Shown piece by piece: positions 5,638 through 15,782 of a stretch of DNA of 20,275 bases. Source of the stretch: a virus. A program made the position numbers and the translations under genes. The stretch lies in IMG/VR virus record IMGVR_UViG_3300005441_000039, positions 1 through 20,275 of that record, one strand, 5' to 3'. The first letter of the stretch is position 1. Every line of letters begins with the position of its first letter. The notes beneath the pieces were generated by a model, which was not told where the DNA came from, ran no database searches, and saw nothing but the letters and a program-made list of their open reading frames with translations.

Positions 5638-5674
5638 GGCCCAAGGCTCGCGCGGGCGGGCGCGTGGGTCGATA
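5638..5674 (-). promoter_or_regulatory. Two-block start-proximal element upstream of the 112-aa gene
   Basis: In the sense direction: TATCGACCC (5674-5666), 14 nt, GCGAGCCTTG (5651-5642), then GGCC and GTG. Block 1 differs by one base from the consensus TTTCGACCC. Distance from block 1 to start is 28 nt. The gap (5638-5696) holds no other gene. Confidence 0.6.
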
Positions 5675-5696
5675 CGCCGCCGCCGTCAGCGCAGCG

Positions 5697-8612
5697 TCAG
5701 CGCCGGCTGCGCACGGCGCCCTGGTTGGCCCGCAGCGTGTTGAGCACGGCCGAGGCACCGTCGCGGCTCTTGATCGCCGCCACGCCCACCGACTTGTCGA
5801 AATGATTGTGGATGTGCACCGCCGGCGCAGCCTGCCGCGCCGGGGCGCCGCCGCGCTGCTGCTCGGGCGTCTGGATCGTCACGCGCTCGCCCGGCGTGGC
5901 CTTGAACGCGACCACCTGCGAGTCGGTGCCGCCGGAGCCGCCGACGATCCCGGAGCCGCCGGTGGCCGCGCCGAAAATCGTGCCGGCGAGCGCGTCGAGC
6001 GCGTTGCCCTCCGACGGTTTGAACAGGCCCATGAACGCCATCACGGCCTGCATCGCAAGCTGCTTCACGATCAGCTTCTCGATGTCGGAGATCATCGAGC
6101 CCACCATGTCGCCCCACGCCACCTTGCCACCGCTGGCCGCGGTAGCGATCGCGTCGGCGAACGTGTTGACGTCGTCGACCAGCGTGCCAGCCAGGGCTTT
6201 GCCGAAGCCTTCGGTCTGCTGGCTCATCTGCGTGGTCATGTCCGCGAGCACAGCCGCGAGGCCCTGAGCTGCAGGCTTCGTCGCGTCGTACAGCCGCTTC
6301 GCCTCGAGCAGCTCCTTGTTGGCGCGTTGACGGTCGATCACGCCAGCATGCAGCGCGCTGTTGACCGATCGGATCGCCGCCTCATAGGCGTTGATCGGTC
6401 CCTTGATCCTGTCGAAGATCTCCCCGTAGCCGCCGAGCGCCGCCTTGGCCTTGTCGTACGTGCTCGTGGCCTCCCTGGTCAGCGTGCTTAGCTGGCCCTC
6501 TGTGAGCGCGTGCTCGACCTCTGCGCCGTGGATCGCGTCGAGCCGTTCCTTGTACACCCGCTGCGCCTCGCCCAGGCTCAGGACGAGCTCGCGCGACTTG
6601 GCGAGCTCGTCGTTGTACTCGCGCGTCGAGGGCGCCAACTCGCCGGCAGCCTTGCGCTGGGTCTCCACGAGCGCAGCCAGCTTCCCGCCGTCGTCCTGTG
6701 CGAGCTTCGTCGCTGCCGTGTCGACGCCCACGCTGACCGCGATCCCCTTGAACGTTCGCGGCCCGAGCATCGCAGCCTGGCGCGCCGTCAGGGCCGGAGC
6801 TCCGGCGGTCGCGATCCCCATGCCTTTGAGCAGCGCCGCGTTGTACTGCTGCGCGTCGAGATAGCCCGAGCGAAATAGCGCGTTCAGCCCGGCGACCCGC
6901 TCGGACGCCTCCCGGATCGGATCTTCGAACTCGTGCCACAGCTTGATTGCGGCGGGCAGCCGGCCACCGTTGATCGTCGTGATCAGCCCCTCGTACGCCT
7001 TCTGGTACTCGTCGGCGGTGAGCTGGCCCTTGACCTGTTCAGCCTTCAGGTTCGCGAGCTGCTTGCGTGCGTCTTCGACGGGCTCCTTGATCGAACGCAG
7101 CAGCTTGAACTGTGCACCGAGTCCCGTTTTGTCCGATCCCCACGGGTCGGCGAAGATGCCGGCGACGATGCCGGCCGTCTGGCCGAATTCCTTGAGCCTG
7201 TCGATCGCCAGCGGCAGCGCGTCGACTGCATCCTTCAGATCTTTGACGAAGCTATTGACGATCGCGTCGCCGGCGCGGATCGACGCGGCGCGCGCGTCCT
7301 CGGCCTTGGCGACGAACTCGGTCATGACGTCGGCCCACGTTTTCCGTAGCCCACGCATCTGGTCCATCATGCCCTGGATGCCTTCGTAGTCGACGGGCGT
7401 GAGGTTGTGAGCGACGTCGATCGCCTTGCGGATCGCGTCGCCACGCGAGTCGCCCTTACTGACAAACAGATCGACGGTACGCGAAAAGGCTTCGGTCTCT
7501 TGCTGCGCGGTCCGCTGGATCTTGCCGAACGCGACATGGATACCGTCGGCGGAGGTGATGAGCGAATCGAGTAACTCGCCGACCTTGATCTTCCCGGAGT
7601 CAACGAGCGCGGTCAGTCCCTGTCGCGTCGTCTTGAAGTGCGCCATCCAGTTCGTCGCGATCTCCGGCACCTCACGCATGATCATGTTGAGCTCGCGCTG
7701 TTCGATGTGGCCGCGCGCAGCCGCATAGGTGAGCCGCGAGACCAGGCTGCCGACGCTCTCGAGCGGCTTGCCTGCAACCTGCGCTGCCTCGCCGAGCGTC
7801 TTCAGAAGCTGGATCTGCTCGCCGTGTGAATAGTTGAGCTCGTCGGTGCCATCTCGAACAGCGTCGTACAGGTCGATCGTCGTCCGGTAGTTCGAGTGCA
7901 GATCGTGCGCGAGGACGATCTGTTCGGACACGATCTGGTTCACGTCGTGCGACGAGTCGACGAACTTGACCGCTGTGTTGTTGGCTTCGATGTACGCGTC
8001 CCGGAGGTACAAGAAGTGCTCGGCGAGCTCCTTGACCTTGGAGATTCCTTCGGTGATGCCCAGGGCTGCCGCGCCGCCGAGCGCGCCCTGAATCCCGGCG
8101 CCGATACCTGGTCCCGACGGCGCGACCGGTGCGCCCGAGCCGGCACCGCCGAGCCCGATCGTCGACGTCGCCTGCGCGGTCTGCGCCGACGCGCTGTCGC
8201 GATGCGCTTTGGTCAGGTGCTCCATCTCCGCAGCGAACTCGGCGGTCGACAGCGCGCCGCGTCTGTGGAGCTTGTCGAGCGCCACAAGCTCGAGGTTGTA
8301 CTCTCGCAACGGCCCGCGGATCCGCTCGACGATCCCGGCCTCGCGCTCGAACTGCGCGTTGAGCGCCGCGAACGGGTTGGCGTAGCGCGCGAGCTTCGAG
8401 AGCGTGTCCTCCTGCGCCCTGGCGGCGGCGGTTGCCTTGGCCAGCGCAGCGGCCGCGGCTACAGCGCCCGCAGCCACCTTGGCGCCTGCCTCGGCCCCCG
8501 CCGCGCCCGTGTGCTTGGCCGCCACGGTAGCCTTCCCGAGCCCTTGTTCGACGCGGGCGACAGCGGCTTCGGCGGCCTGGGTCTGGATCTGGACCATCAA
8601 CTGGAAGCTCAT
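5697..8612 (-). CDS. Tail tape measure protein, 971 aa
   Basis: Sets tail length and is carried inside the tail tube. The ATG at 8612 lies 16 nt after the stop of the frameshift product. The N-terminal 70 residues are Ala-rich helix. Residues about 200-390 match the tape-measure N-terminal domain common in phages and prophages (NNTAVKFVDSSHDVNQIV, then LNMIMREVPEIATNWMAHFK and LLDSLITSADGIHVAFGKIQ). Residues 850-930 have the usual hydrophobic, Gly-rich end with ATPGERVTIQTPEQQ, followed by AVHIHNHFDKS. At least four degenerate copies of a 40-residue helical unit lie at about 98-137, 506-545, 562-600 and 735-775. At roughly 0.15 nm per helical residue the predicted tail is about 145 nm, an inference. 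It follows the chaperone genes directly, the standard order. Confidence 0.93.
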   Translation of the reverse strand: MSFQLMVQIQTQAAEAAVARVEQGLGKATVAAKHTGAAGAEAGAKVAAGAVAAAAALAKATAAARAQEDTLSKLARYANPFAALNAQFEREAGIVERIRGPLREYNLELVALDKLHRRGALSTAEFAAEMEHLTKAHRDSASAQTAQATSTIGLGGAGSGAPVAPSGPGIGAGIQGALGGAAALGITEGISKVKELAEHFLYLRDAYIEANNTAVKFVDSSHDVNQIVSEQIVLAHDLHSNYRTTIDLYDAVRDGTDELNYSHGEQIQLLKTLGEAAQVAGKPLESVGSLVSRLTYAAARGHIEQRELNMIMREVPEIATNWMAHFKTTRQGLTALVDSGKIKVGELLDSLITSADGIHVAFGKIQRTAQQETEAFSRTVDLFVSKGDSRGDAIRKAIDVAHNLTPVDYEGIQGMMDQMRGLRKTWADVMTEFVAKAEDARAASIRAGDAIVNSFVKDLKDAVDALPLAIDRLKEFGQTAGIVAGIFADPWGSDKTGLGAQFKLLRSIKEPVEDARKQLANLKAEQVKGQLTADEYQKAYEGLITTINGGRLPAAIKLWHEFEDPIREASERVAGLNALFRSGYLDAQQYNAALLKGMGIATAGAPALTARQAAMLGPRTFKGIAVSVGVDTAATKLAQDDGGKLAALVETQRKAAGELAPSTREYNDELAKSRELVLSLGEAQRVYKERLDAIHGAEVEHALTEGQLSTLTREATSTYDKAKAALGGYGEIFDRIKGPINAYEAAIRSVNSALHAGVIDRQRANKELLEAKRLYDATKPAAQGLAAVLADMTTQMSQQTEGFGKALAGTLVDDVNTFADAIATAASGGKVAWGDMVGSMISDIEKLIVKQLAMQAVMAFMGLFKPSEGNALDALAGTIFGAATGGSGIVGGSGGTDSQVVAFKATPGERVTIQTPEQQRGGAPARQAAPAVHIHNHFDKSVGVAAIKSRDGASAVLNTLRANQGAVRSRR

Positions 8613-8628
8613 AGGCGCGCCCCTGGGC

Positions 8629-9467
8629 TCACTGGGCCCCTCGTGCGGTGGTGAGTCGCTGCCGGGCCGCCTCGGCCTCGGCGCGCTCGTGATCGAGCTG
8701 CCGGATGACCTGGACGAGCGTCACACTGGCCTCCCGGTCGAGCTCGTGGAACTCGCACCAAGCCACGATCGCCGTCCACGGGATCGGCCCAAGCGCCATA
8801 CCGATCGCACGGCACGTGCCCAGATCGCTCCATGCGTGGATACACATCCCGATCGCCGCGTCGCGCTCGGGCTCGTCGACCAAGGCCGCGTCGAGCTGCT
8901 GCTCGGCCTGCGTTCGACGCGCGGGGCTGGTCGCCGCGTCGTCGAGCTCGGCGCGTAGATCGCGAGCCGTCGCCGCGTTGGCTTCGCTCCACTCCAGCCA
9001 CGCGGCTACCTTTTTCCCAGCTCGGCGGCGTCCCCCAGCGGCGCCGGCCGGAAGGTGTCGGCGTCCTGCGCCCAGGCGCGAAACGCCACGTACGTCCCGA
9101 TCCCCTCGTCGGACTCGATGATCGCGGTCAGGAACTCGTGCACCTTGGCCGGCGTGCACGGCGCCGGCGTGCCGTCGTCCTCGATCACGTGGTCCCAGCT
9201 CACGACGCAGTGGTCGGCGATGAGCTTGGCTTCCTCGATGCAGCGGGCCTTCGTCTTGGCTTCGCTGATCGAGTTGTTGCCACCGCGAGCGCGGAGCGCG
9301 TTGGCCGCGTTCCAGCTCGCTGTCTTGAACCCGCGCGTGCCATCACCCGCGTGGCGTACGAGCAGCGCCGGCGGGCCGGCAGCGCACAGCCGGATGCCGT
9401 GGAACACGTAGACCGCCGTGGCCCCGTCGGGAATCGCGAGGTCCTTGACGATCTTGGTGAAGGCCAT
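8629..9467 (-). CDS. Tail assembly chaperone, -1 frameshift fusion product (G-T type)
   Basis: Predicted extended product. Ribosomes read the chaperone frame from 9467 to 9012, slip back one base on GGGAAAA, and continue in the -1 frame from 9012 to the TGA at 8631-8629. This gives 152 + 127 = about 279 residues. The second part (KVAAWLEWSEANAATARDL at its start, then a helical segment ending ARQRLTTARGAQ) has no start codon of its own near the junction and no Shine-Dalgarno sequence. It nevertheless has the residue make-up of a real protein (GPIPWTAIVAWCEFHELDR). In lambda and many siphophages the G and G-T proteins wrap the tape measure before tube assembly. The overlap geometry and the downstream tape measure gene fit that arrangement. 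Confidence 0.8.
8972..9018 (-). promoter_or_regulatory. Programmed -1 ribosomal frameshift signal
   Basis: Sense reading: slippery heptamer G GGA AAA at 9018-9012, in the phase required for tandem slippage, then AGGTA, then a stem-loop. The stem pairs GCCGCGT (9006-9000) with ACGCGGC (8978-8972). An inner GGCT (8999-8996) pairs with AGCC (8983-8980), with a single unpaired base at 8979 and a 12-nt loop. The zero-frame stop TAG (9008-9006) lies just after the heptamer. Lambda uses G GGA AAG at the equivalent site. Confidence 0.82.
9006..9467 (-). CDS. Tail assembly chaperone (G-type, unshifted product), 153 aa
   Basis: ATG at 9467, TAG at 9008-9006, ending AELGKR. The protein is mixed helical with the DW-type pattern of tail assembly chaperones (HCVVSWDHVIEDDGTPAPCT, then VHEFLTAIIESDEGI) and lies between the tail tube and tape measure genes. 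That is the conserved position for the pair of chaperones that keep the tape measure soluble during tail assembly. No Shine-Dalgarno sequence is visible. The start is preceded by the two-block element with CGACGATGGC two bases before the ATG. An out-of-frame ATG inside that block (9474-9472) is not the start, because its frame gives an Arg-rich translation. Confidence 0.85.
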   Translation of the reverse strand: MAFTKIVKDLAIPDGATAVYVFHGIRLCAAGPPALLVRHAGDGTRGFKTASWNAANALRARGGNNSISEAKTKARCIEEAKLIADHCVVSWDHVIEDDGTPAPCTPAKVHEFLTAIIESDEGIGTYVAFRAWAQDADTFRPAPLGDAAELGKR

Positions 9468-9503
9468 GCGCCATCGTCGGCGGCGTGGCGGGACGGGTCG
9501 AAA
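9468..9503 (-). promoter_or_regulatory. Two-block start-proximal element upstream of the chaperone gene
   Basis: Sense: TTTCGACCC (9503-9495), 15 nt, CGACGATGGC (9479-9470), then GC and ATG. Block 1 ends 27 nt before the start. The preceding gene stops at 9509-9507, so the element fills the whole gap. Confidence 0.62.
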
Positions 9504-9506
9504 CCG

Positions 9507-11021
9507 CTACGACGCTGGCAGGTACGCGAACATCGAGACGCCCAGCGTGTAGTTGGTGACCGGATCGCGAAACCCGCCAGCCTTGGGCGAGAGCATGATC
9601 GGCCCGTTGCCCGGGAAGGTCAGCGCGGCATCGCTGAACTTGAGCGCCGGGACCTCGAAGAAGATCCCGCCGTCGCCGTTGCGAAAGCCCGAGCCGAACG
9701 TGAGCGTGGTGTTGTTCGGCGCGGCACGGATGCCGGCGTCGCCGTTGACGTAGCACTCGGCGTCGACGCCCACCTCGGCCTTGCCCATCACGTTCTCGGC
9801 CGTGCCGTACGTGCCCTGCTGCTTGAGCGGCGAGACGCCGTTCTTGTGGGTCAGCTTCCACGAGCTGATCTTGTTGCTGACGATCTCGCCGGTCGTGGCG
9901 TCGGTGAATCGCAGGTAGGGCTGCTTGGTCATCGCGTTGAACCGCTGGACCGCGAACGACGCCTGCGCCGTGGCTGCGCCGGTCGCGCGGGTCACCGTCG
10001 GCAGCGTGACGAACGTCCCCGAGAACGTGAGCTCGAGCTTGATCAGCGCCTTCATCGCCGAGGTCACGACGAACTGGTCGACGGTCTGGCCCTGCGCATA
10101 GCAGTAGTCGGTGGCGTTGGCCGTACCGATGCCCGGCAGCGAGAGCTCGAGCTGGTAGCTCGGCTCGAGGTAGTCGGCGGCGTCGTAGGCGACCTCGCGA
10201 AGCCAGCTGCCCCAGTACAGGTCGATCGTCTTGGTCGCGCCAGCGTCGAGCGCGACCTGGGTCCAGCTGCGCACGGCAGCGTTGGTCGTGATGAGATGCG
10301 CCGCGACGGTGGTGACCTTGACGAAGCCCCCGTAGCCGGCGGTCGCGAACGCGAACGCGGTGCCCGGCACGCCGCCGACGTAGATGACCTGGCCGGGCCA
10401 GATCCCCATCGTCGTGAAGTCGGCGATCGTCGACGTGATGTTGCCGTTGACGTCGATCCCGATGTCGCCCGCCGCGCCGCGGAACCCCGCGACCTCGAGC
10501 GTGGCCGCGTAGCCCGCGATCGTCTCGGCCACGCCGCCGGCCACCGTGATCGACGTCGCCGTCGAGCCGGCGCCGACGACGAGCAGCGTGCCGTTCTGCG
10601 CGACGTTGGTACCGGTGATGAGGCCGCGAGGCACCACGAGCGTCCCGGCCTGCAGCGCGCCACCGGCGGCCACCGTGAACGCCGTGGTGGTCCGCGCCGT
10701 CGGCAGAAACCGCGACACGCCCGTGCCGCCCGAGTGCTTGATCGCCGCGAGCATCATGCCCTCGCGGAACGCGTAGGCGTGATCGAGCGTGAGATCCATC
10801 GTCAGCTTGGGCGCGGCATCGCCGTCGACGATCTCGGGCGCCTCGAGCTGGCGCAGCACCGAGAGCGGCGATGGGCTCACCGTCGACGTCTTGAGGTAGA
10901 ACTCGCTGATGCCGCCCTGGTCGGGCTGAAGCCTGAGCCAGCCCGTCGTGGGCTGGACGCCGAGCCCGCCGGTCTCGCGCGCCGAGAGCAGCCCAACCAT
11001 TTCCGACTTGCCGGTGGTCAT
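9507..11021 (-). CDS. Major tail tube protein (large form), 504 aa
   Basis: Forms the tail tube around the tape measure. Starts at ATG 11021 and ends in TAG 9509-9507. The pattern is beta-rich, with tube-protein landmarks: an N-terminal region naming the subunit fold (GGISEFYLKTSTVSPSPLSV), a central Gly/Val-rich part containing FTTMGIWPGQVIYVGG, and a conserved C-terminal part (SSWKLTHKNGVSPLKQQGT, then VPALKFSDAALTFPGNGPI and MFAYLPAS). It resembles the Phage_tube_2-like tail tube group. At 504 residues it is larger than typical siphovirus tube proteins of about 150-300. Residues about 105-190 look like an inserted Ala/Gly/Thr/Val-rich beta domain that could decorate the outer tube surface (inference). 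It lies between the tail terminator and the chaperones, the standard position. Confidence 0.85.
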   Translation of the reverse strand: MTTGKSEMVGLLSARETGGLGVQPTTGWLRLQPDQGGISEFYLKTSTVSPSPLSVLRQLEAPEIVDGDAAPKLTMDLTLDHAYAFREGMMLAAIKHSGGTGVSRFLPTARTTTAFTVAAGGALQAGTLVVPRGLITGTNVAQNGTLLVVGAGSTATSITVAGGVAETIAGYAATLEVAGFRGAAGDIGIDVNGNITSTIADFTTMGIWPGQVIYVGGVPGTAFAFATAGYGGFVKVTTVAAHLITTNAAVRSWTQVALDAGATKTIDLYWGSWLREVAYDAADYLEPSYQLELSLPGIGTANATDYCYAQGQTVDQFVVTSAMKALIKLELTFSGTFVTLPTVTRATGAATAQASFAVQRFNAMTKQPYLRFTDATTGEIVSNKISSWKLTHKNGVSPLKQQGTYGTAENVMGKAEVGVDAECYVNGDAGIRAAPNNTTLTFGSGFRNGDGGIFFEVPALKFSDAALTFPGNGPIMLSPKAGGFRDPVTNYTLGVSMFAYLPAS

Positions 11022-11058
11022 GCAGCCATCGTCGAGCCGACGCCCGAGCGGGTCGAAA
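11022..11058 (-). promoter_or_regulatory. Two-block start-proximal element upstream of the tail tube gene
   Basis: Sense: TTTCGACCC (11058-11050), 15 nt, CGACGATGGC (11034-11025), then TGC and ATG. Block 1 ends 28 nt before the start. The ATG in block 2 opens a three-codon frame (ATG GCT GCA TGA) whose stop overlaps the real start. The preceding gene stops at 11069-11067. Confidence 0.62.
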
Positions 11059-11066
11059 CCGCCCGG

Positions 11067-11495
11067 CTACTTGGTCTCGTAGTATGAGAACGGCGTGCGG
11101 ACCATCAGCGTAAACCACCGCGTGTCGGTGCCGATCTCCTGGGTCACCGATGCGCCTGTGGTGAGCGGCTCGCCGCCGTCTGGCGCCGGCAGATTCACCA
11201 TCTCGAAGATCGCCCGCACGGCGCCGACGAGCTGGGCCAGGCCGTAGCGCCCGGCGCCCGCCGCGCCCCACAGCTTGACGGTGATCCACCCGTTGCGATC
11301 GACGAACCGCGAGCCGGCCGCGCCCGAGGTGAGCTGTGCCGCGGTCGTGTGCGTAATCGTCAGCGCGGCGAAGCTCGCGGTCGGCGGCAGCTCGATCGCG
11401 CGGTTGTCGAGCGCGTACGGCACGTTGCTCGAGGCCGCCGGCCAGGCCGCCGCGAACGTCGCCGAGATGAGCTCGATGGCCTGGGCCTCGGTCAT
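11067..11495 (-). CDS. Tail terminator / tail completion protein, 142 aa
   Basis: The protein has the alpha/beta make-up of phage tail terminators. It starts with a helix (EAQAIELISATFAAAWPA), has NVPYALDN and a strand with ALTITHTTAAQLT, then a WITVKLWGAAGAGR segment, and ends in a strand (WFTLMVRTPFSYYE). This resembles the DUF4128/terminator group, which caps the finished tube and provides the head-binding face. The ATG at 11495 lies 2 nt after the TAG of the upstream gp10-like gene (11500-11498), so translation is probably coupled. Its position directly before the tail tube gene is the usual one. The assignment rests on composition and synteny and not on a diagnostic residue. Confidence 0.72.
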   Translation of the reverse strand: MTEAQAIELISATFAAAWPAASSNVPYALDNRAIELPPTASFAALTITHTTAAQLTSGAAGSRFVDRNGWITVKLWGAAGAGRYGLAQLVGAVRAIFEMVNLPAPDGGEPLTTGASVTQEIGTDTRWFTLMVRTPFSYYETK

Positions 11496-11497
11496 GT

Positions 11498-11980
11498 CTA
11501 GTCGTCGCCGAACGGCGAGTACGCGCCCGCCATGTTGCCGGCCGCGTCGCCACCGCGATCGGCGATCGCCCCCGCGATCACCGGCGACAGGTCAATCGCG
11601 ACGCCGTCGTACTGGGACTGGATCTTTTGCACGGCCTGTTCGATCGCGATGAGGTCCCAGCCGGCCGCGGCCTGCGTGCTCGCGCCGCCGATCAGCCGGC
11701 CGATGTACGGCACGTTGTTGGCCTCGAACAGGTCGCCGTCGCCGAGCTTGAACCGCATGACCTGCGCCACGCCATCGGCGTGCGCGGTCTCGCCGTTGCC
11801 GTCGACCTCGACCACGAACGCGGCGCCCACCGCGGGTACCCAGTTGGCGTGCGCGTGGCCCGTCTTGACCGGCGTGGCCTCGCGCAGGTTGGCGTCGATC
11901 TCGAGGATGAGCGCCTTGCAGACGTTGGCGAGCTCAGCGCGGAACTTGCCGCTGACCGCGACGACCTGCGGATCGGACAT
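11498..11980 (-). CDS. HK97 gp10-like neck / head-tail joining protein, 160 aa
   Basis: Residues about 30-50 carry the family signature TPVKTGHAHANWVPAVG, the TPV-TG-N-W pattern of HK97 gp10-like and lambda Z-like tail completion proteins. Residues 85-115 carry NNVPYIGRLIGGASTQAA followed by a helix, which is the NN-PYA-LE-type segment of the same family. These proteins act at the head-tail junction. The ATG at 11980 lies 3 nt after the TAG of the proline-rich gene (11986-11984). Only a weak purine run precedes it, so coupling is likely. Lying just before the tail terminator supports the call. Confidence 0.8.
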   Translation of the reverse strand: MSDPQVVAVSGKFRAELANVCKALILEIDANLREATPVKTGHAHANWVPAVGAAFVVEVDGNGETAHADGVAQVMRFKLGDGDLFEANNVPYIGRLIGGASTQAAAGWDLIAIEQAVQKIQSQYDGVAIDLSPVIAGAIADRGGDAAGNMAGAYSPFGDD

Positions 11981-11983
11981 CGG

Positions 11984-12295
11984 CTACCGCTTCGAGCTGC
12001 GCTGCTGCGGCGGCGCAGGCGCGCGCCTGGGCAGCTCGGTCTCCGGGACCGGCAGCGGCGCAGGCCGGGGCTCCGGCACGGGCTCGGGCTCGGGCGCTGG
12101 CGTCGGGTGAGCGACCTCGATCATCGCCGAGCGCCAGAAGTTCCACGCCGCGTCCTGGGTCATGTCGAGGTCCGCGTACGGGAACGGATCGCCGGCCGCG
12201 AACGCCCGATCGCCGTAGGTGAACGGGATGCGCGCGACGAACGAACAGCCCGGCGTCGGGGCCATCCGCGGACAGTGGTCGGTGGAGCCCTGCAT
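11984..12295 (-). CDS. Small proline-rich protein following the capsid gene, 103 aa
   Basis: ATG at 12295 (an alternative ATG at 12265 would remove ten residues), TAG at 11986-11984. Residues 20-62 contain a motif shared by many small phage head-region proteins (TYGDRAFAAGDPFPYADLD), followed by a helix. Residues 64-98 are a Pro/Glu-rich linker with repeating PAPEPEPVPEP. The C-terminus is basic (PPQQRSSKR). The order small conserved head, extended linker, basic tail suggests a flexible accessory protein at the capsid or neck, but I cannot name the family. It lies 11 nt after the capsid stop and has no clear Shine-Dalgarno sequence, so coupling with capsid translation is likely. Confidence 0.68.
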   Translation of the reverse strand: MQGSTDHCPRMAPTPGCSFVARIPFTYGDRAFAAGDPFPYADLDMTQDAAWNFWRSAMIEVAHPTPAPEPEPVPEPRPAPLPVPETELPRRAPAPPQQRSSKR

Positions 12296-12306
12296 CGCGC
12301 CGTGCG

Positions 12307-13338
12307 CTACTGGACGATGCCGGAGAAGAACACGCCGCACTTGGGTGACACGATCTGGAACGTATCGTCGACGGCGCCCTCGATCCAGAACGAGCGGATG
12401 TCCTGGTCCCAGTAGCGCCAGTTGCGGAAGCCCTCGCTGTTGCCCGTCAGGCCCTGCCAGGTGAAGCGCAGGCCGGCCGTGGTCTGCAGCTTGCTCGGCG
12501 ACGGGTTGACGTAGCCGAGCCACGCGGACTTGCTCGACATGATGAAGGCGGGCGTGTTGACCTGCGCCGTGCCCGCGTTGGTCGTCGTCTCGTTCGCGGT
12601 GTTGTAGACCGCGCCAGCGACGAGGACCCTGTCGACCTTGAAGAGGTTCGCGATGTCGTCGAGCGTGGCCTGCGCCGACATACCGGGGCGCTGGCCGTTG
12701 ACCACGCGGGCCAGGACCTGCGCGTTGGTGAGTAGCGGCGCGACGACGTCGGCGCCCAGGATCAGGGTGTTGTACTTGCGGCGGGAGGCGAGCTTGCCGA
12801 TCGGGTGCTCCGCGAGCACGTTCGAGATCGGCACGCCGGTCGACGCGTTCCAGTAGATCGCCTGCACGCCGCTCGGCGCGGACGCGACGCCGGTGACGTC
12901 GCGCCCCCAGACGCCGGTCTTCCACGCGATGGAGGCGACCCGGACCTCGTCGGAGATCGCCATGACCTCGGCGACACTCTTGGTCGCGACCTCTTCGGCG
13001 TCGATCGCCGACGTCGCGATCATCTCCTCGGTCAGCTTCTCGCGATAGCCGAACTGCTGGGTCTTGGCCGGCGTGGACGACGCGTTCCAGCCGCCCTCTT
13101 CGGCCTTGGTCCCAGGCGCGCGCGGCTGCGCCTTGTTCTGGCCGATCGACGCCATGTCGATCGTGTAGTACGTGAACGCCTGCTCGGGCTCGCCGATGGT
13201 CGGGAACCACTGGCGCGCGATGAAGTCGCCCGCGTCCTCCTGGAAGGCCGCGATCGAGATGTTCTCGAGGATGAGGTTGCGAGCGAGGTCGCCCGGTGTG
13301 GCGGCCTTCTGAACGCGCGTGTGGATGTGGTCGGGCAT
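12307..13338 (-). CDS. Major capsid protein, 343 aa
   Basis: Builds the icosahedral shell. ATG at 13338, TAG at 12309-12307. Length is typical for an HK97-fold capsid. Features fitting the fold: an N-terminal helical arm (HTRVQKAATPGDLARNLILE), a strand region with ARQWFPTIGEPEQAFTYY, a spine-helix segment (EEVATKSVAEVMAISDEVR), and a C-terminal axial part ending in VDDTFQIVSPKCGVFFSGIVQ. It lies directly after the protease/scaffold and decoration genes, the usual assembly order. A strong Shine-Dalgarno (TAAGGAA, 5 nt from the ATG) fused to the upstream stop fits a highly expressed gene. I do not see a catalytic crosslinking residue pattern and do not claim one. Confidence 0.88.
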   Translation of the reverse strand: MPDHIHTRVQKAATPGDLARNLILENISIAAFQEDAGDFIARQWFPTIGEPEQAFTYYTIDMASIGQNKAQPRAPGTKAEEGGWNASSTPAKTQQFGYREKLTEEMIATSAIDAEEVATKSVAEVMAISDEVRVASIAWKTGVWGRDVTGVASAPSGVQAIYWNASTGVPISNVLAEHPIGKLASRRKYNTLILGADVVAPLLTNAQVLARVVNGQRPGMSAQATLDDIANLFKVDRVLVAGAVYNTANETTTNAGTAQVNTPAFIMSSKSAWLGYVNPSPSKLQTTAGLRFTWQGLTGNSEGFRNWRYWDQDIRSFWIEGAVDDTFQIVSPKCGVFFSGIVQ

Positions 13339-13343
13339 GGCGG

Positions 13344-13350
13344 TTCCTTA
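13344..13350 (-). promoter_or_regulatory. Shine-Dalgarno of the capsid gene fused to the upstream stop
   Basis: TAAGGAA in the sense direction. TAA is the stop of the decoration gene and AAGGAA is the ribosome binding site, 5 nt before the capsid ATG. It fixes the start at 13338. Confidence 0.85.
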
Positions 13351-13719
13351 GGTGGCGAGCAGCGCGCCGGGTTCCCAGGTTGCGGCGACGATGTCGCCGA
13401 TGGCGCCGCCCTCGACGATCTGGCCGAGGACGTTGTGCGTGGCCACCGCGACGATCGCGTTGCCAACGGCGTCGGTCGAATACTTCTGGCCGGCCGTCAT
13501 GATCGCGCCGAGCACGACCTTGACCTTGGGGCCGACAAGCAGTTCGACCGCCTCGCCGGCGAGCGGCTTGTTCGCGATGATGCCGACGCCGAGCGCGCCC
13601 GCGGTGCCCGCGAAGGTCACCGTGCGATTGCCATTGATTACCGCGACGCAGAACTGCTTCGCGGCCAGGCTCACGCTGGCGGTGTAGCCGCTGTCGCGCT
13701 CCGAGTTGATCGTTCCCAT
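13348..13719 (-). CDS. Capsid decoration / cement protein (DUF2190-like), 123 aa
   Basis: Starts at ATG 13719 with a strong Shine-Dalgarno and ends in TAA 13350-13348. The sequence is almost entirely short beta strands and Gly turns: NGNRTVTFAGTAGALGVGI, LAGEAVELLVGPKVKVVLG, and HNVLGQIVEGGAIGDIV. This is the pattern of DUF2190-type decoration proteins, which bind the expanded capsid surface and stabilise it. Length (about 110-125 residues) and position between protease and major capsid genes match that family. It is co-translated with its neighbours through stop/Shine-Dalgarno overlaps on both sides, as expected for a protein needed in amounts close to the capsid protein. Confidence 0.82.
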   Translation of the reverse strand: MGTINSERDSGYTASVSLAAKQFCVAVINGNRTVTFAGTAGALGVGIIANKPLAGEAVELLVGPKVKVVLGAIMTAGQKYSTDAVGNAIVAVATHNVLGQIVEGGAIGDIVAATWEPGALLAT

Positions 13720-13727
13720 GGGATGAG

Positions 13728-13734
13728 CTCCTTA
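13728..13734 (-). promoter_or_regulatory. Shine-Dalgarno of the decoration gene fused to the protease stop
   Basis: TAAGGAG in the sense direction. TAA ends the protease-scaffold gene, and AAGGAG lies 8 nt before ATG 13719. It decides that start. Confidence 0.87.
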
Positions 13735-14451
13735 TGCCTGCACGCGGGGATAGGCTTCGGCGTAGAGGTCCGAACCCTCGGCGGTCTTGAGGAAGTCAGC
13801 GGTCGCCGCCGCGAGCTGCTTCGTCGTCGGCGCGTCGACCTTGAACCTGGCCTTGGCGAACCCGACGAGGCCGGCGTCGAAGGCGGCCTTGGGCGAGTCC
13901 GGTGCTGGCGCGGTGCCGGGGTTGACGCCGTGCGCCTTGGTGAGCGAGAGCATGGCGGCATCGGCCGCCTTGATCGCTTCGTGCGCCTCCTTGCGAATGG
14001 CCTCGTCGGGGATGCCGTCGATCGCGCGGACGATCGCGACGTGCACCGGGAGCGCCTTGGCGAAGTGCGCCAGGTCGGCGGTGGCGCGCTTCTCGATCGC
14101 CGCGGTCTCGGTGGCGGCCTGCGCCTTGGCCAGGAGCTCGGTGGTGACTGCCTGCGCCTTGGCTGCGAGGTCGGCCTGCTTGGCGAGCTCGAGCGCGACC
14201 GGGCCGTCGGACTTGCGGATCTCGATCCCGCTCGCGGTCTTGTAGACCGGCGCGTCCGCATCGGCCAGCGCCTTGAGCACGGTCTCGCGATCGAGGTGCG
14301 ACTTGGCGAGGAACGCCTCGGCGTCGCCGCCGCGGAGCTGCGCGTGGTGCGCGCGCTGGCTGTCGGTCAGCGTGTTGAGCTGCTCGAGCCGCGCCACCTG
14401 CTTGGTGAGCTCGGCGATCCTTGTCTCTTCGGCGGTGGGCACGGTGGGCAT
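13732..14451 (-). CDS. Possible nested scaffold protein from an internal in-frame start, 239 aa
   Basis: An in-frame ATG at 14451 (Met311 of the protease-scaffold gene) would give a separate 239-residue protein. It would be nearly all helix: EETRIAELTKQVARLEQLNT at the start, long Ala/Glu/Lys-rich helices, then PKAAFDAGLVGFAKARFKVD near the end. Many phages make scaffold this way from inside the protease gene (lambda C/Nu3, Mu I/Z), and this is the basis of the proposal. Supporting DNA signals: AAGGAG directly abuts the ATG (closer than ideal) and TTTCGACCC, the first block of the repeated element, lies 35 nt upstream. Without this start, scaffold would come only from proteolysis of the fusion protein. 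Mass spectrometry would decide. Confidence 0.5.
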   Translation of the reverse strand: MPTVPTAEETRIAELTKQVARLEQLNTLTDSQRAHHAQLRGGDAEAFLAKSHLDRETVLKALADADAPVYKTASGIEIRKSDGPVALELAKQADLAAKAQAVTTELLAKAQAATETAAIEKRATADLAHFAKALPVHVAIVRAIDGIPDEAIRKEAHEAIKAADAAMLSLTKAHGVNPGTAPAPDSPKAAFDAGLVGFAKARFKVDAPTTKQLAAATADFLKTAEGSDLYAEAYPRVQA

Positions 14452-15381
14452 CTCCTTGGGAACGACGGTAGGGTCCGCGCCAGGACGGGTCGAAACACCC
14501 GCGGGCGCACGCGCGACGACGACGGAAATCGTGGGGCCGTCGACGGCCGGATCGCAGGCGGGCTCGCAGGTTGGCGGCTCGGCCTCTTCGACGAGCGCGG
14601 CGGCGAGGACCTCGGCCGGCACGGGTTCGGCGACCGCGTGATCGTGGCCCGAGTCGAGCGCGATCGTGACCACGCCCGTCGCGGCGTCGTAGACCCACGC
14701 GTGGCAGTGGCCTTCGGTGGCGCCTTCGGCGACCTGGTAGCTGGTCGACAGCCGGTCGCGATAGTAGCTCGCCGGCTCGTCGAGATCGATCGAGTGCTGG
14801 TGGCCCTCGACGATCGACGTCAGGACGGTGCGCTTGCGGAACTGACGCACTGGCGCGTTCTTGACGAGTTCGCGCTCACCCGTCCCCGCGATCGAAAACG
14901 CGTTCAGCTCGCCGCTCTCGTAGCGCTTGAATGCTTCCGTGCTCGGCTTCATGCCGATCGCCAGCCCCTCGACGTCCCCGCGCACCTTCAGCGCTGCCTT
15001 GACGTCAGCGGTGAGCGGCAGCATGAAGATCACGCGACCGTCAGACCCGGTGCTCTCACCTTCGTGCATGACGTCCGAGTAGGCGCCTGCCTCGGCGAAG
15101 TCCGCCGCGATCTTGATCAGCTCGTCGCCACCGACAACGGCGTCGTTTTGCATGTCGACATGCGGCGTCCTGCCGCCGTCAACCGTCGAGGCGAGTGCGT
15201 AGCCGAACACGATCCCGAGCCGCGGAACCGTCGTCGCGACCTTCGCGACCAAGGTGAAGTCCTCGGCGCCCGACCGTGCGCGCTTCGCGAGGACCACATT
15301 GGAGATTTCGCCCTGTGCTCCGCGGTCCACGAGGCTGATGAACTTCAGACTCTTGATTCGCAGGCGGTTGTATGGGGCCAC
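13732..15381 (-). CDS. XkdF-like prohead protease fused to a scaffold-like coiled coil, 549 aa
   Basis: Starts at GTG 15381-15379 and ends in TAA 13734-13732. Residues 1-175 resemble the XkdF-type putative phage serine protease domain: an opening LRIKSLKFISLVDRGAQGE, then DMQNDAVVGGDELIKIAADF, VMHEGES (His106) and FSIAGTGERE (Ser163). His106 and Ser163 are the likely catalytic pair by comparison with prohead proteases. Residues 190-250 contain three GHxH motifs (GHQH 193, GHCH 224, GHDH 245). Residues 255-310 are an acidic Pro/Ala linker. Residues 311-549 are a helical, Ala-rich scaffold-like region. The protein should process the prohead and, through its C-terminal part, shape it. It sits just before decoration and capsid genes as expected. 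The protease call is family-based, and the catalytic residues are inferred. Confidence 0.83.
   Translation of the reverse strand: MAPYNRLRIKSLKFISLVDRGAQGEISNVVLAKRARSGAEDFTLVAKVATTVPRLGIVFGYALASTVDGGRTPHVDMQNDAVVGGDELIKIAADFAEAGAYSDVMHEGESTGSDGRVIFMLPLTADVKAALKVRGDVEGLAIGMKPSTEAFKRYESGELNAFSIAGTGERELVKNAPVRQFRKRTVLTSIVEGHQHSIDLDEPASYYRDRLSTSYQVAEGATEGHCHAWVYDAATGVVTIALDSGHDHAVAEPVPAEVLAAALVEEAEPPTCEPACDPAVDGPTISVVVARAPAGVSTRPGADPTVVPKEMPTVPTAEETRIAELTKQVARLEQLNTLTDSQRAHHAQLRGGDAEAFLAKSHLDRETVLKALADADAPVYKTASGIEIRKSDGPVALELAKQADLAAKAQAVTTELLAKAQAATETAAIEKRATADLAHFAKALPVHVAIVRAIDGIPDEAIRKEAHEAIKAADAAMLSLTKAHGVNPGTAPAPDSPKAAFDAGLVGFAKARFKVDAPTTKQLAAATADFLKTAEGSDLYAEAYPRVQA
14452..14495 (-). promoter_or_regulatory. 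Block-1 copy inside the protease gene before the internal scaffold start
   Basis: Sense TTTCGACCCGTCC begins at 14495. With the base before it, the 14 bases are identical to those upstream of the chaperone gene. It is followed by 35 nt from the end of the 9-base block to ATG 14451. Block 2 is not recognisable here, and AAGGAG abuts the ATG. It is coding in the long gene (VSTRPG). Confidence 0.4.
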
Positions 15382-15419
15382 GAGCGCAAGGCTCGCAGCC
15401 GCTACGCGGCGGGGCGAAA
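15382..15419 (-). promoter_or_regulatory. Two-block start-proximal element upstream of the protease-scaffold gene
   Basis: Sense: TTTCGCCCC (15419-15411), 14 nt, GCGAGCCTTG (15396-15387), then CGCTC and GTG. Block 1 ends 29 nt before the start. The spacer contains a perfect short inverted repeat GCCGC-GTA-GCGGC (15410-15398). Confidence 0.62.
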
Positions 15420-15433
15420 CGGCTCAGCGCAGC

Positions 15434-15745
15434 TCAGCGCTTGGACGGCGCGGGGGCGTGCGCGGCCGCGTGCGGCGCTGCGTGCGTTGAGGCTGCAGCG
15501 GCGGCGACAGCGGCCTTGTGCTCGGCGGCGGCCTGCTCGGCTTTGTGCTGGTCCTCGGCGTCTTCTTCGGCGTTGCGCCGCTTGAGCTCGACGAGCGCAG
15601 CTTCGGCGAGCTCGACCTCGGCCTTGCGCGCCGCGGTCCGGCTCTCGAGCCGTTCCTTCTCGGTTCGCTTGGCCAGCTCGGCAAGCTGGACGGTGCGGGC
15701 CTCGGCGGCCTTGAGCTCTCGTTCGCGTTCCAGTTCTGTCGGCAT
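15434..15745 (-). CDS. Small coiled-coil protein, 103 aa
   Basis: ATG at 15745, TGA at 15436-15434. Residues 1-80 are an uninterrupted charged helix (ELERERELKAAEARTVQLAE, then KRTEKERLESRTAARKAEVE and QHKAEQAAAEH) with heptad-like spacing. Residues 81-103 are an Ala/His/Pro tail ending PAPSKR. No known domain is evident. Lying between the minor head and protease/scaffold genes, it may be an auxiliary scaffold or internal head protein, but this is only positional. It has no Shine-Dalgarno sequence. The two-block element ends 4 nt before the ATG and supports this start. Confidence 0.7.
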   Translation of the reverse strand: MPTELERERELKAAEARTVQLAELAKRTEKERLESRTAARKAEVELAEAALVELKRRNAEEDAEDQHKAEQAAAEHKAAVAAAAASTHAAPHAAAHAPAPSKR

Positions 15746-15782
15746 GCGCCAAGGCTCGCAAGCAGCCCAGGCGGGGTCGAAA
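15746..15782 (-). promoter_or_regulatory. Two-block start-proximal element upstream of the coiled-coil gene
   Basis: Sense: TTTCGACCC (15782-15774), 14 nt, GCGAGCCTTG (15759-15750), then GCGC and ATG. Block 1 begins directly after the TGA of the minor head gene and ends 28 nt before the start. Confidence 0.62.

Follow-up and report, generated by a model that had tools for sequence, protein, structure and literature searches.

Repeated late promoters, leaderless phage transcripts and the TANNNT leaderless promoters of bacteria are all known kinds of signal. The middle promoters of phage T4 combine a MotA box with a -10 element and work by sigma appropriation, and the Thermus phage P23-45 produces leaderless transcripts. 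The middle and late promoters of P23-45 are of the extended -10 type (PMC7403470), while the published signature of bacterial leaderless genes is a TANNNT box about 12 bp before the start codon (Zheng et al. 2011, PMC3160421). Jumbo phage AR9 uses its own multisubunit polymerase, which reads the motif AACA-N6-TA/G and yields long leaders of 26-491 nt, and many of its late promoters serve single genes, some lying inside open reading frames (ORFs) and giving N-terminally truncated products (PMC5312081). In cluster K mycobacteriophages, the start-associated sequence (SAS), GGGATAGGAGCCC, is repeated and oriented just upstream of start codons as one block beside the start, with a Shine-Dalgarno (SD)-like core and often with 17-bp inverted repeats (PMC3203893). 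Here we describe a repeated two-block element in the IMG/VR record IMGVR_UViG_3300005441_000039 (20,275 bases, 69% guanine plus cytosine; hereafter "the window", meaning the whole stretch analyzed). We consider it probable (about 0.87) that this element represents a class of phage late promoter, combining a -35-region block of non-canonical sequence with a degenerate -10 box, that gives mainly leaderless mRNAs.

The element is conserved, holds its two blocks at a fixed spacing, is restricted to the late strand, and keeps a set geometry relative to the start codon and SD sequence; promoter activity and the site of transcription initiation are what we infer from this sequence pattern. In full, it reads WWTCG[A/C]CCC-N15-C[G/T]ASSnT, usually followed by 6-7 nt more and then the start codon. 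When the 16 first-found copies were aligned on the first base of block 1, position 0 was mostly G, positions 1-9 were TTTCG[A/C]CCC, the next 15 bases were unconserved, and block 2 occupied positions 25-31 as C[G/T]A[C/G][C/G]NT. Within block 2, A27 and T31, corresponding to the A-11 and T-7 of a sigma-70-family -10 box, were each present in 15 of the 16 sites, and the single exception has a spacer one nucleotide longer; the blocks are otherwise 15 nt apart in nearly all sites (16 in one). In relatives, block 1 usually opens with A or T at each of its first two positions, and either A or C stands at position 6. The first-pass annotation had placed five copies of the element on the minus strand, and all five are where it put them (Table 1); the start codons follow the first base of block 1 by 36-38 nt, and the copies fill short gaps of 37, 52, 45, 39, and 59 nt. 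The five starts also lack an SD sequence, as had been claimed: their anti-SD energies of -2.1 to -2.2 kcal/mol are weaker than those of shuffled upstream sequences (-4.0 to -4.7). The claim of two distinct second blocks did not hold, as CGAGCCT and CGACGAT fill the same positions, 25-31, both having A at 27 and T at 31, and represent two forms of a single 7-mer, C[G/T]A..nT, whose register with block 1 is fixed. A search of the window for a recognizable TTGACA/TATAAT consensus, the mark of a canonical sigma-70 promoter, gave 0 matches. A plus-strand (antisense) match of 16 bits at 15306, within the 13732-15381 ORF, is not conserved in a relative 91% identical to the window (L004), and is probably due to chance.

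Set beside the described systems, the element resembles the TANNNT leaderless promoters in that its -10-type box stands about 12 bp ahead of the start, an SD sequence is lacking, and transcription is predicted to begin at the start codon, but its box is mostly CGA..nT, it carries a strong, non-canonical 9-base -35 block, and it serves late phage genes only. Like the middle and late promoters of P23-45, it would be a phage promoter class served by the polymerase of hosts from a bacterial group in which leaderless genes abound, but it depends on a conserved -35-region block. As in the T4 middle promoters, a phage-specific block would stand in for the -35 element ahead of a -10 box, although the sequence differs. 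With AR9 it would share many single-gene late promoters, including internal ones, but not the polymerase, the motif, or the long leaders. The likeness to the cluster K SAS is one of position and orientation; the present element has a different sequence, two blocks, no SD sequence, and neither a fold nor an inverted repeat, and does not belong to that class. Neither the present consensus nor the split between leaderless and SD-led sites (described below) was found in the literature searched.

The nearer relatives of the window are all uncultured: G001 (62 kb), G002 (76 kb), G003, L002, L004, G007:C124, G011, and G015. With a 16-position weight matrix trained on other phage genomes only (the window's own group being left out), the five reported sites scored 21.9-22.0 bits, and scores for all six full copies in the window ranged over 20.2-22.0 bits. 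When the window was shuffled 300 times by a Markov model, there were no matches above 20 bits and 0.06 per window above 16 bits. A leave-one-genome-out scan of the window and about 20 sequences from relatives, some of them overlapping, gave 53 matches above 13 bits, compared with one for the mirrored matrix, even though the model contains no start codon. Four of the genomes (G011, G012, G013, and G014) were retrieved with a motif pattern that included the start codon, so their first matches are not independent; the extra matches in G011 and G012 are. By hand count, the late strand holds about 30 of the 31 sites above 15 bits in the window, G001, G002, G007:C124, G011, and G015. Among 27 orthologous site pairs from four genes, block 1 was 84% and block 2 88% identical, while identity was 40% in the spacer, 43% in the 15 nt upstream, and 50% in the first 60 coding bases. 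Blocks that are conserved around a drifting spacer are the footprint to be expected of two protein-DNA contacts. The weight-matrix scan over relatives that the first-pass annotation had proposed thus recovered the sites far above shuffled sequence, and homologous phages have kept the blocks but not the spacer.

Exact-pattern scans for the two 10-mers of the first-pass annotation returned mostly chance matches, plus true relatives, and the many single matches to the motif pattern in low-GC or unrelated contigs were excluded from use. One element-like site of 17 bits in the late region of G001 (L014:16025, minus strand) has no clear gene start at the expected distance. Two lone strong matches, at L063:8860 (minus strand) and L036:5374 (plus strand), have a start at +37 on contigs without a portal homolog and share part of their spacer (gacgaacggt); they may be chance matches, belong to homologous coding DNA, or mean that the motif is used more widely.

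The distance from the element to the start codon separates two kinds of site. Among 39 curated sites, the start lies at +36 (4), +37 (18), +38 (7), or +40 (3), or else at +50 to +59 with an SD sequence (7). Because 29 of the 39 starts are at +36 to +38 and three more at +40, T31 falls 5-9 nt, mostly 6-7, before the start codon. The 32 leaderless-type sites have no SD sequence (anti-SD energy -3.2, compared with -4.4 for shuffles). All seven of the others have one after the predicted 5' end (mean -7.3, compared with -3.9 for shuffles; the window site at 14495 was entered at +50 instead of the +53 of its conserved GTG, without effect on the result). In these SD-led genes, an extra 13-22 nt, corresponding to a short leader, separates the element from the start codon, which puts the predicted 5' end ahead of the SD sequence. 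Among 428 gene calls in five relatives, TAnnnT hexamers are most frequent at exactly 6-7 nt ahead of the start codon (12 and 8 cases, against mostly 0-5 at other positions), and some of these boxes carry TTGACA-like -35 elements at normal spacing. As both peak at the same distance from the start, block 2 takes the position of an ordinary -10 box in these phages. TAnnnT boxes stand 6-7 nt ahead of many gene starts in G001, G002, G007:C124, G011, and G015, and two such promoters flank the repressor region of G001; judging from these boxes, leaderless initiation seems common throughout these phages, beyond the late genes.

The sixth full copy in the window (14495-14465) lies inside the 549-aa ORF at 13732-15381, where block 2, CTACCGT, is followed by AAGGAG and a GTG at 14442; we take this GTG as the internal start because L004 lacks the alternative ATG at 14451. 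Only in this internal, scaffold-type copy does block 2 contain TAnnnT. The window and five relatives share this placement, with the element within or between the protease and scaffold parts of a single reading frame, and in all six genomes block 2 is CTACCGT, CTAGCGT, or GTAGCGT, followed by AGGAG and then ATG or GTG. The protein around the internal element is a poorly conserved linker, yet the element's bases are kept. G001 encodes the protease part in an ORF of its own. The N-terminal part of the 549-aa ORF weakly resembles an XkdF-type protease (E-values of 0.008 and 0.002), and gene order suggests that the 236-aa nested product is a scaffold, by analogy with the nested protease/scaffold arrangement of lambda C/Nu3. 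The internal copy, itself promoter-like, probably drives a separate scaffold protein. As the only copy with a true TA in its -10 box, it is perhaps also, we speculate, a stronger promoter for the scaffold, decoration, and capsid genes. Separate transcription of the nested scaffold would be a simple route to making more scaffold and capsid than protease.

Under the promoter reading, RNA polymerase would be directed by the -35-region block WWTCG[A/C]CCC and the degenerate -10 box C[G/T]ASSnT, which keeps A-11 and T-7, and transcription would start about 7 nt past T-7, which agrees with where the start codons and SD sequences lie. In most genes this predicted start coincides with the start codon, so their mRNAs would be leaderless, while the copy inside the protease/scaffold ORF would give a short SD-led mRNA for the nested scaffold and the capsid genes that follow. 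The first-pass annotation had suggested a phage-specific promoter giving leaderless mRNAs; the placement of block 2, the displacement of the SD-led starts, and the conservation support the promoter and the leaderless parts of this suggestion, and the phage-specific part is our inference. Several points weigh against the promoter reading: (i) no known sigma factor has been shown to read block 2, because it is far from TATAAT and mostly carries CGA rather than TA; (ii) no sigma factor with a region 2 was found in the phages; (iii) the gene calls were home-made; and (iv) the element precedes only some late genes, so the remainder would rely on read-through. The second of these points fits a reading of the same promoter by a host alternative sigma factor of the extracytoplasmic function (ECF) type instead of a phage factor, which is a sub-case of the promoter reading and does not exclude it. 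Its -35/-10 geometry, with a CGA-type -10 box, is compatible with ECF promoters. In the one metagenome-assembled genome (MAG) that carries a relative, and that may be the host's, the 20 of 26 pattern matches that were examined did not lie before starts and mostly lacked A or T at positions 1-2, which counts against a host reader; we regard an ECF-type reader as a real possibility, though one somewhat short of even odds.

The first-pass annotation had offered a translational-regulator site as its alternative, in which the blocks, as an operator or start-associated sequence, would bind a protein or the ribosome in RNA and replace the SD sequence. The position of the blocks just ahead of start codons without SD sequences fits this idea, but seven copies serve SD genes whose start is 13-22 nt more distant, which is what an RNA with its 5' end downstream of the element would lead one to expect; such a class is not foreseen under a translational operator and counts for a promoter. 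The gaps and leaderless-type sites, moreover, contain no RNA fold (mean fold z 0.09), one conserved copy sits inside an ORF, and block 2 stands as far from the start as do the DNA -10 boxes of the same phages, all of which makes translational control very unlikely. A repressor operator of the stoperator kind, that is, asymmetric sites in short gaps bound by a temperate phage's repressor and silencing late transcription, would suit relatives that encode an integrase and a Cro/CI-type regulator, as well as sites that lie in short gaps and are oriented with transcription. Stoperators of the L5 type are bound by the phage repressor and act without a fixed distance to the start. Such a roadblock needs neither two fixed-spaced blocks nor a fixed start distance, however; the early strand has no sites, and the A-11/T-7 pattern and the displacement of SD-led starts are left unexplained, so that this explanation is, if anything, slightly less credible than translational control. 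Chance or shared flanking ancestry, with the repeats being remnants of gene duplication or neutral homology, might be raised because the compared phages are related, but the copies precede non-homologous genes, the blocks are retained where the spacers are close to random, and none of the 300 shuffles reaches 20 bits; we give it almost no weight.

What might read the proposed promoter was sought among the phage proteins. G001 alone encodes (L013:8282-8722, minus strand) a protein whose sole sigma-70 motif is that of region 4 (PF04545, E-value 2.6e-7) and which also has an RPCPWxSC motif; it was dropped as a general factor because the phage contigs of the other relatives lack it. Proteins of this type occur in Myxococcota genomes, a possible hint at the host. 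A zinc-type protein with seven invariant cysteines and a conserved RTRYxGQ motif is encoded in all five large element-bearing relatives (Table 1). The 63-kb G004 record has no zinc-type protein, a distant capsid, and no element in the 21 kb scanned with the matrix. In G007:C124, G011, G002, and G015, 0.04-2.1 kb separate the zinc-type gene from the terminase region downstream of it, and the arrangement in G001 was deduced by joining contig ends. The protein has no Pfam or PHROG match; neither it nor the region-4-like protein has a match among GenBank phages; and its AlphaFold model (predicted local distance difference test score 75.5, predicted template modeling score 0.36) matched no PDB entry at E < 0.001. 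Position and co-occurrence make it a candidate late activator, although co-occurrence is weak evidence because the phages are related. It is like the P2 Ogr/Delta zinc-finger late activators in being a small cysteine-rich protein proposed as a late regulator, but it lacks a detectable family match, and the Ogr site is near -55, not -35. We speculate that a phage-encoded zinc protein near the terminase supplies specificity. A fuller version, which we think doubtful, is that a phage protein with two zinc sites replaces the sigma region 4 contact at WWTCGMCCC and redirects the host polymerase to the degenerate -10 box, producing a leaderless late program with a dedicated internal scaffold promoter.

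The element occurs in an uncultured group of soil phages, a lineage of temperate siphophages. The minus strand of the window encodes a siphophage morphogenesis cluster: portal, adaptor, head morphogenesis, protease/scaffold ORF, major capsid, neck, tail terminator, tail protein, chaperone, and tape measure. The gene at 11021-9507 matches PHROG 290, which is called a minor tail protein, while its homologs are annotated as major tail protein. Compared with cultured phages (RDJL, KPP23, Rhizobium phages), the capsid and portal are only about 30-38% identical. The lineage is temperate at least in part, given the integrase genes of G001 and G002 and the Cro/CI-type regulator of G001. Scanning genome contigs with a portal pattern recovered a single MAG contig (G007:C124, within a Thermoleophilaceae MAG), and a major capsid protein pattern gave zero matches; G011 was first picked up through the motif alone, and its portal homolog was confirmed afterwards. 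In G001, three neighboring minus-strand ORFs (38719-39075, 39077-39430, and 39432-39899, together 38719-39899) have similar sequences, as tandem paralogs; all three match parts of the G002 protein at 8450-8812, and two also match the 626-aa G002 protein at 6561-8441. No description of this phage lineage was found in a literature search that could not reach most subscription literature.

Table 1. Positions of the element copies and associated features in the window, and of zinc-type protein genes in relatives
Feature	Position	Strand	Remarks
Block 1 (-35-like), TTTCGACCC	15774..15782	-	gene 15745-15434
Block 2 (-10-like), CGAGCCT	15752..15758	-	predicted RNA 5' end at or beside ATG 15745
Block 1, TTTCGCCCC	15411..15419	-	gene 15381-13732 (protease/scaffold ORF)
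Block 2, CGAGCCT	15389..15395	-	predicted 5' end at or beside GTG 15381
Block 1, TTTCGACCC	14487..14495	-	internal sixth copy
Block 2, CTACCGT	14465..14471	-	internal copy, fits TAnnnT; predicted 5' end about 14458
Shine-Dalgarno, AAGGAG	14452..14457	-	serves internal GTG 14442
Nested in-frame product, 236 aa, proposed scaffold	13732..14442	-	PHROG 24785; conserved in five genomes; role suggested by gene order
Block 1, TTTCGACCC	11050..11058	-	gene 11021-9507
Block 2, CGACGAT	11028..11034	-	predicted 5' end at or beside ATG 11021
Block 1, TTTCGACCC	9495..9503	-	gene 9467-9006 (tail assembly chaperone)
Block 2, CGACGAT	9473..9479	-	predicted 5' end at or beside ATG 9467
Block 1, TATCGACCC	5666..5674	-	gene 5637-5299
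Block 2, CGAGCCT	5644..5650	-	predicted 5' end at or beside GTG 5637
Zinc-type protein gene	L013:958-1560	-	
Zinc-type protein gene	L019:14885-15559	+	
Zinc-type protein gene	L062:5062-5697	-	
Zinc-type protein gene	L059:6323-6988	+	
Zinc-type protein gene	L071:12755-13405	+	

For an uncultured phage lineage without an isolate, the element provides a late-promoter consensus that is precise to the base and testable. The motif also marks genes directly, as a pattern built from it found a relative, G011, that the protein search had not returned. If the promoter reading is right, it would imply that the virion genes of these phages are expressed largely from leaderless mRNAs.

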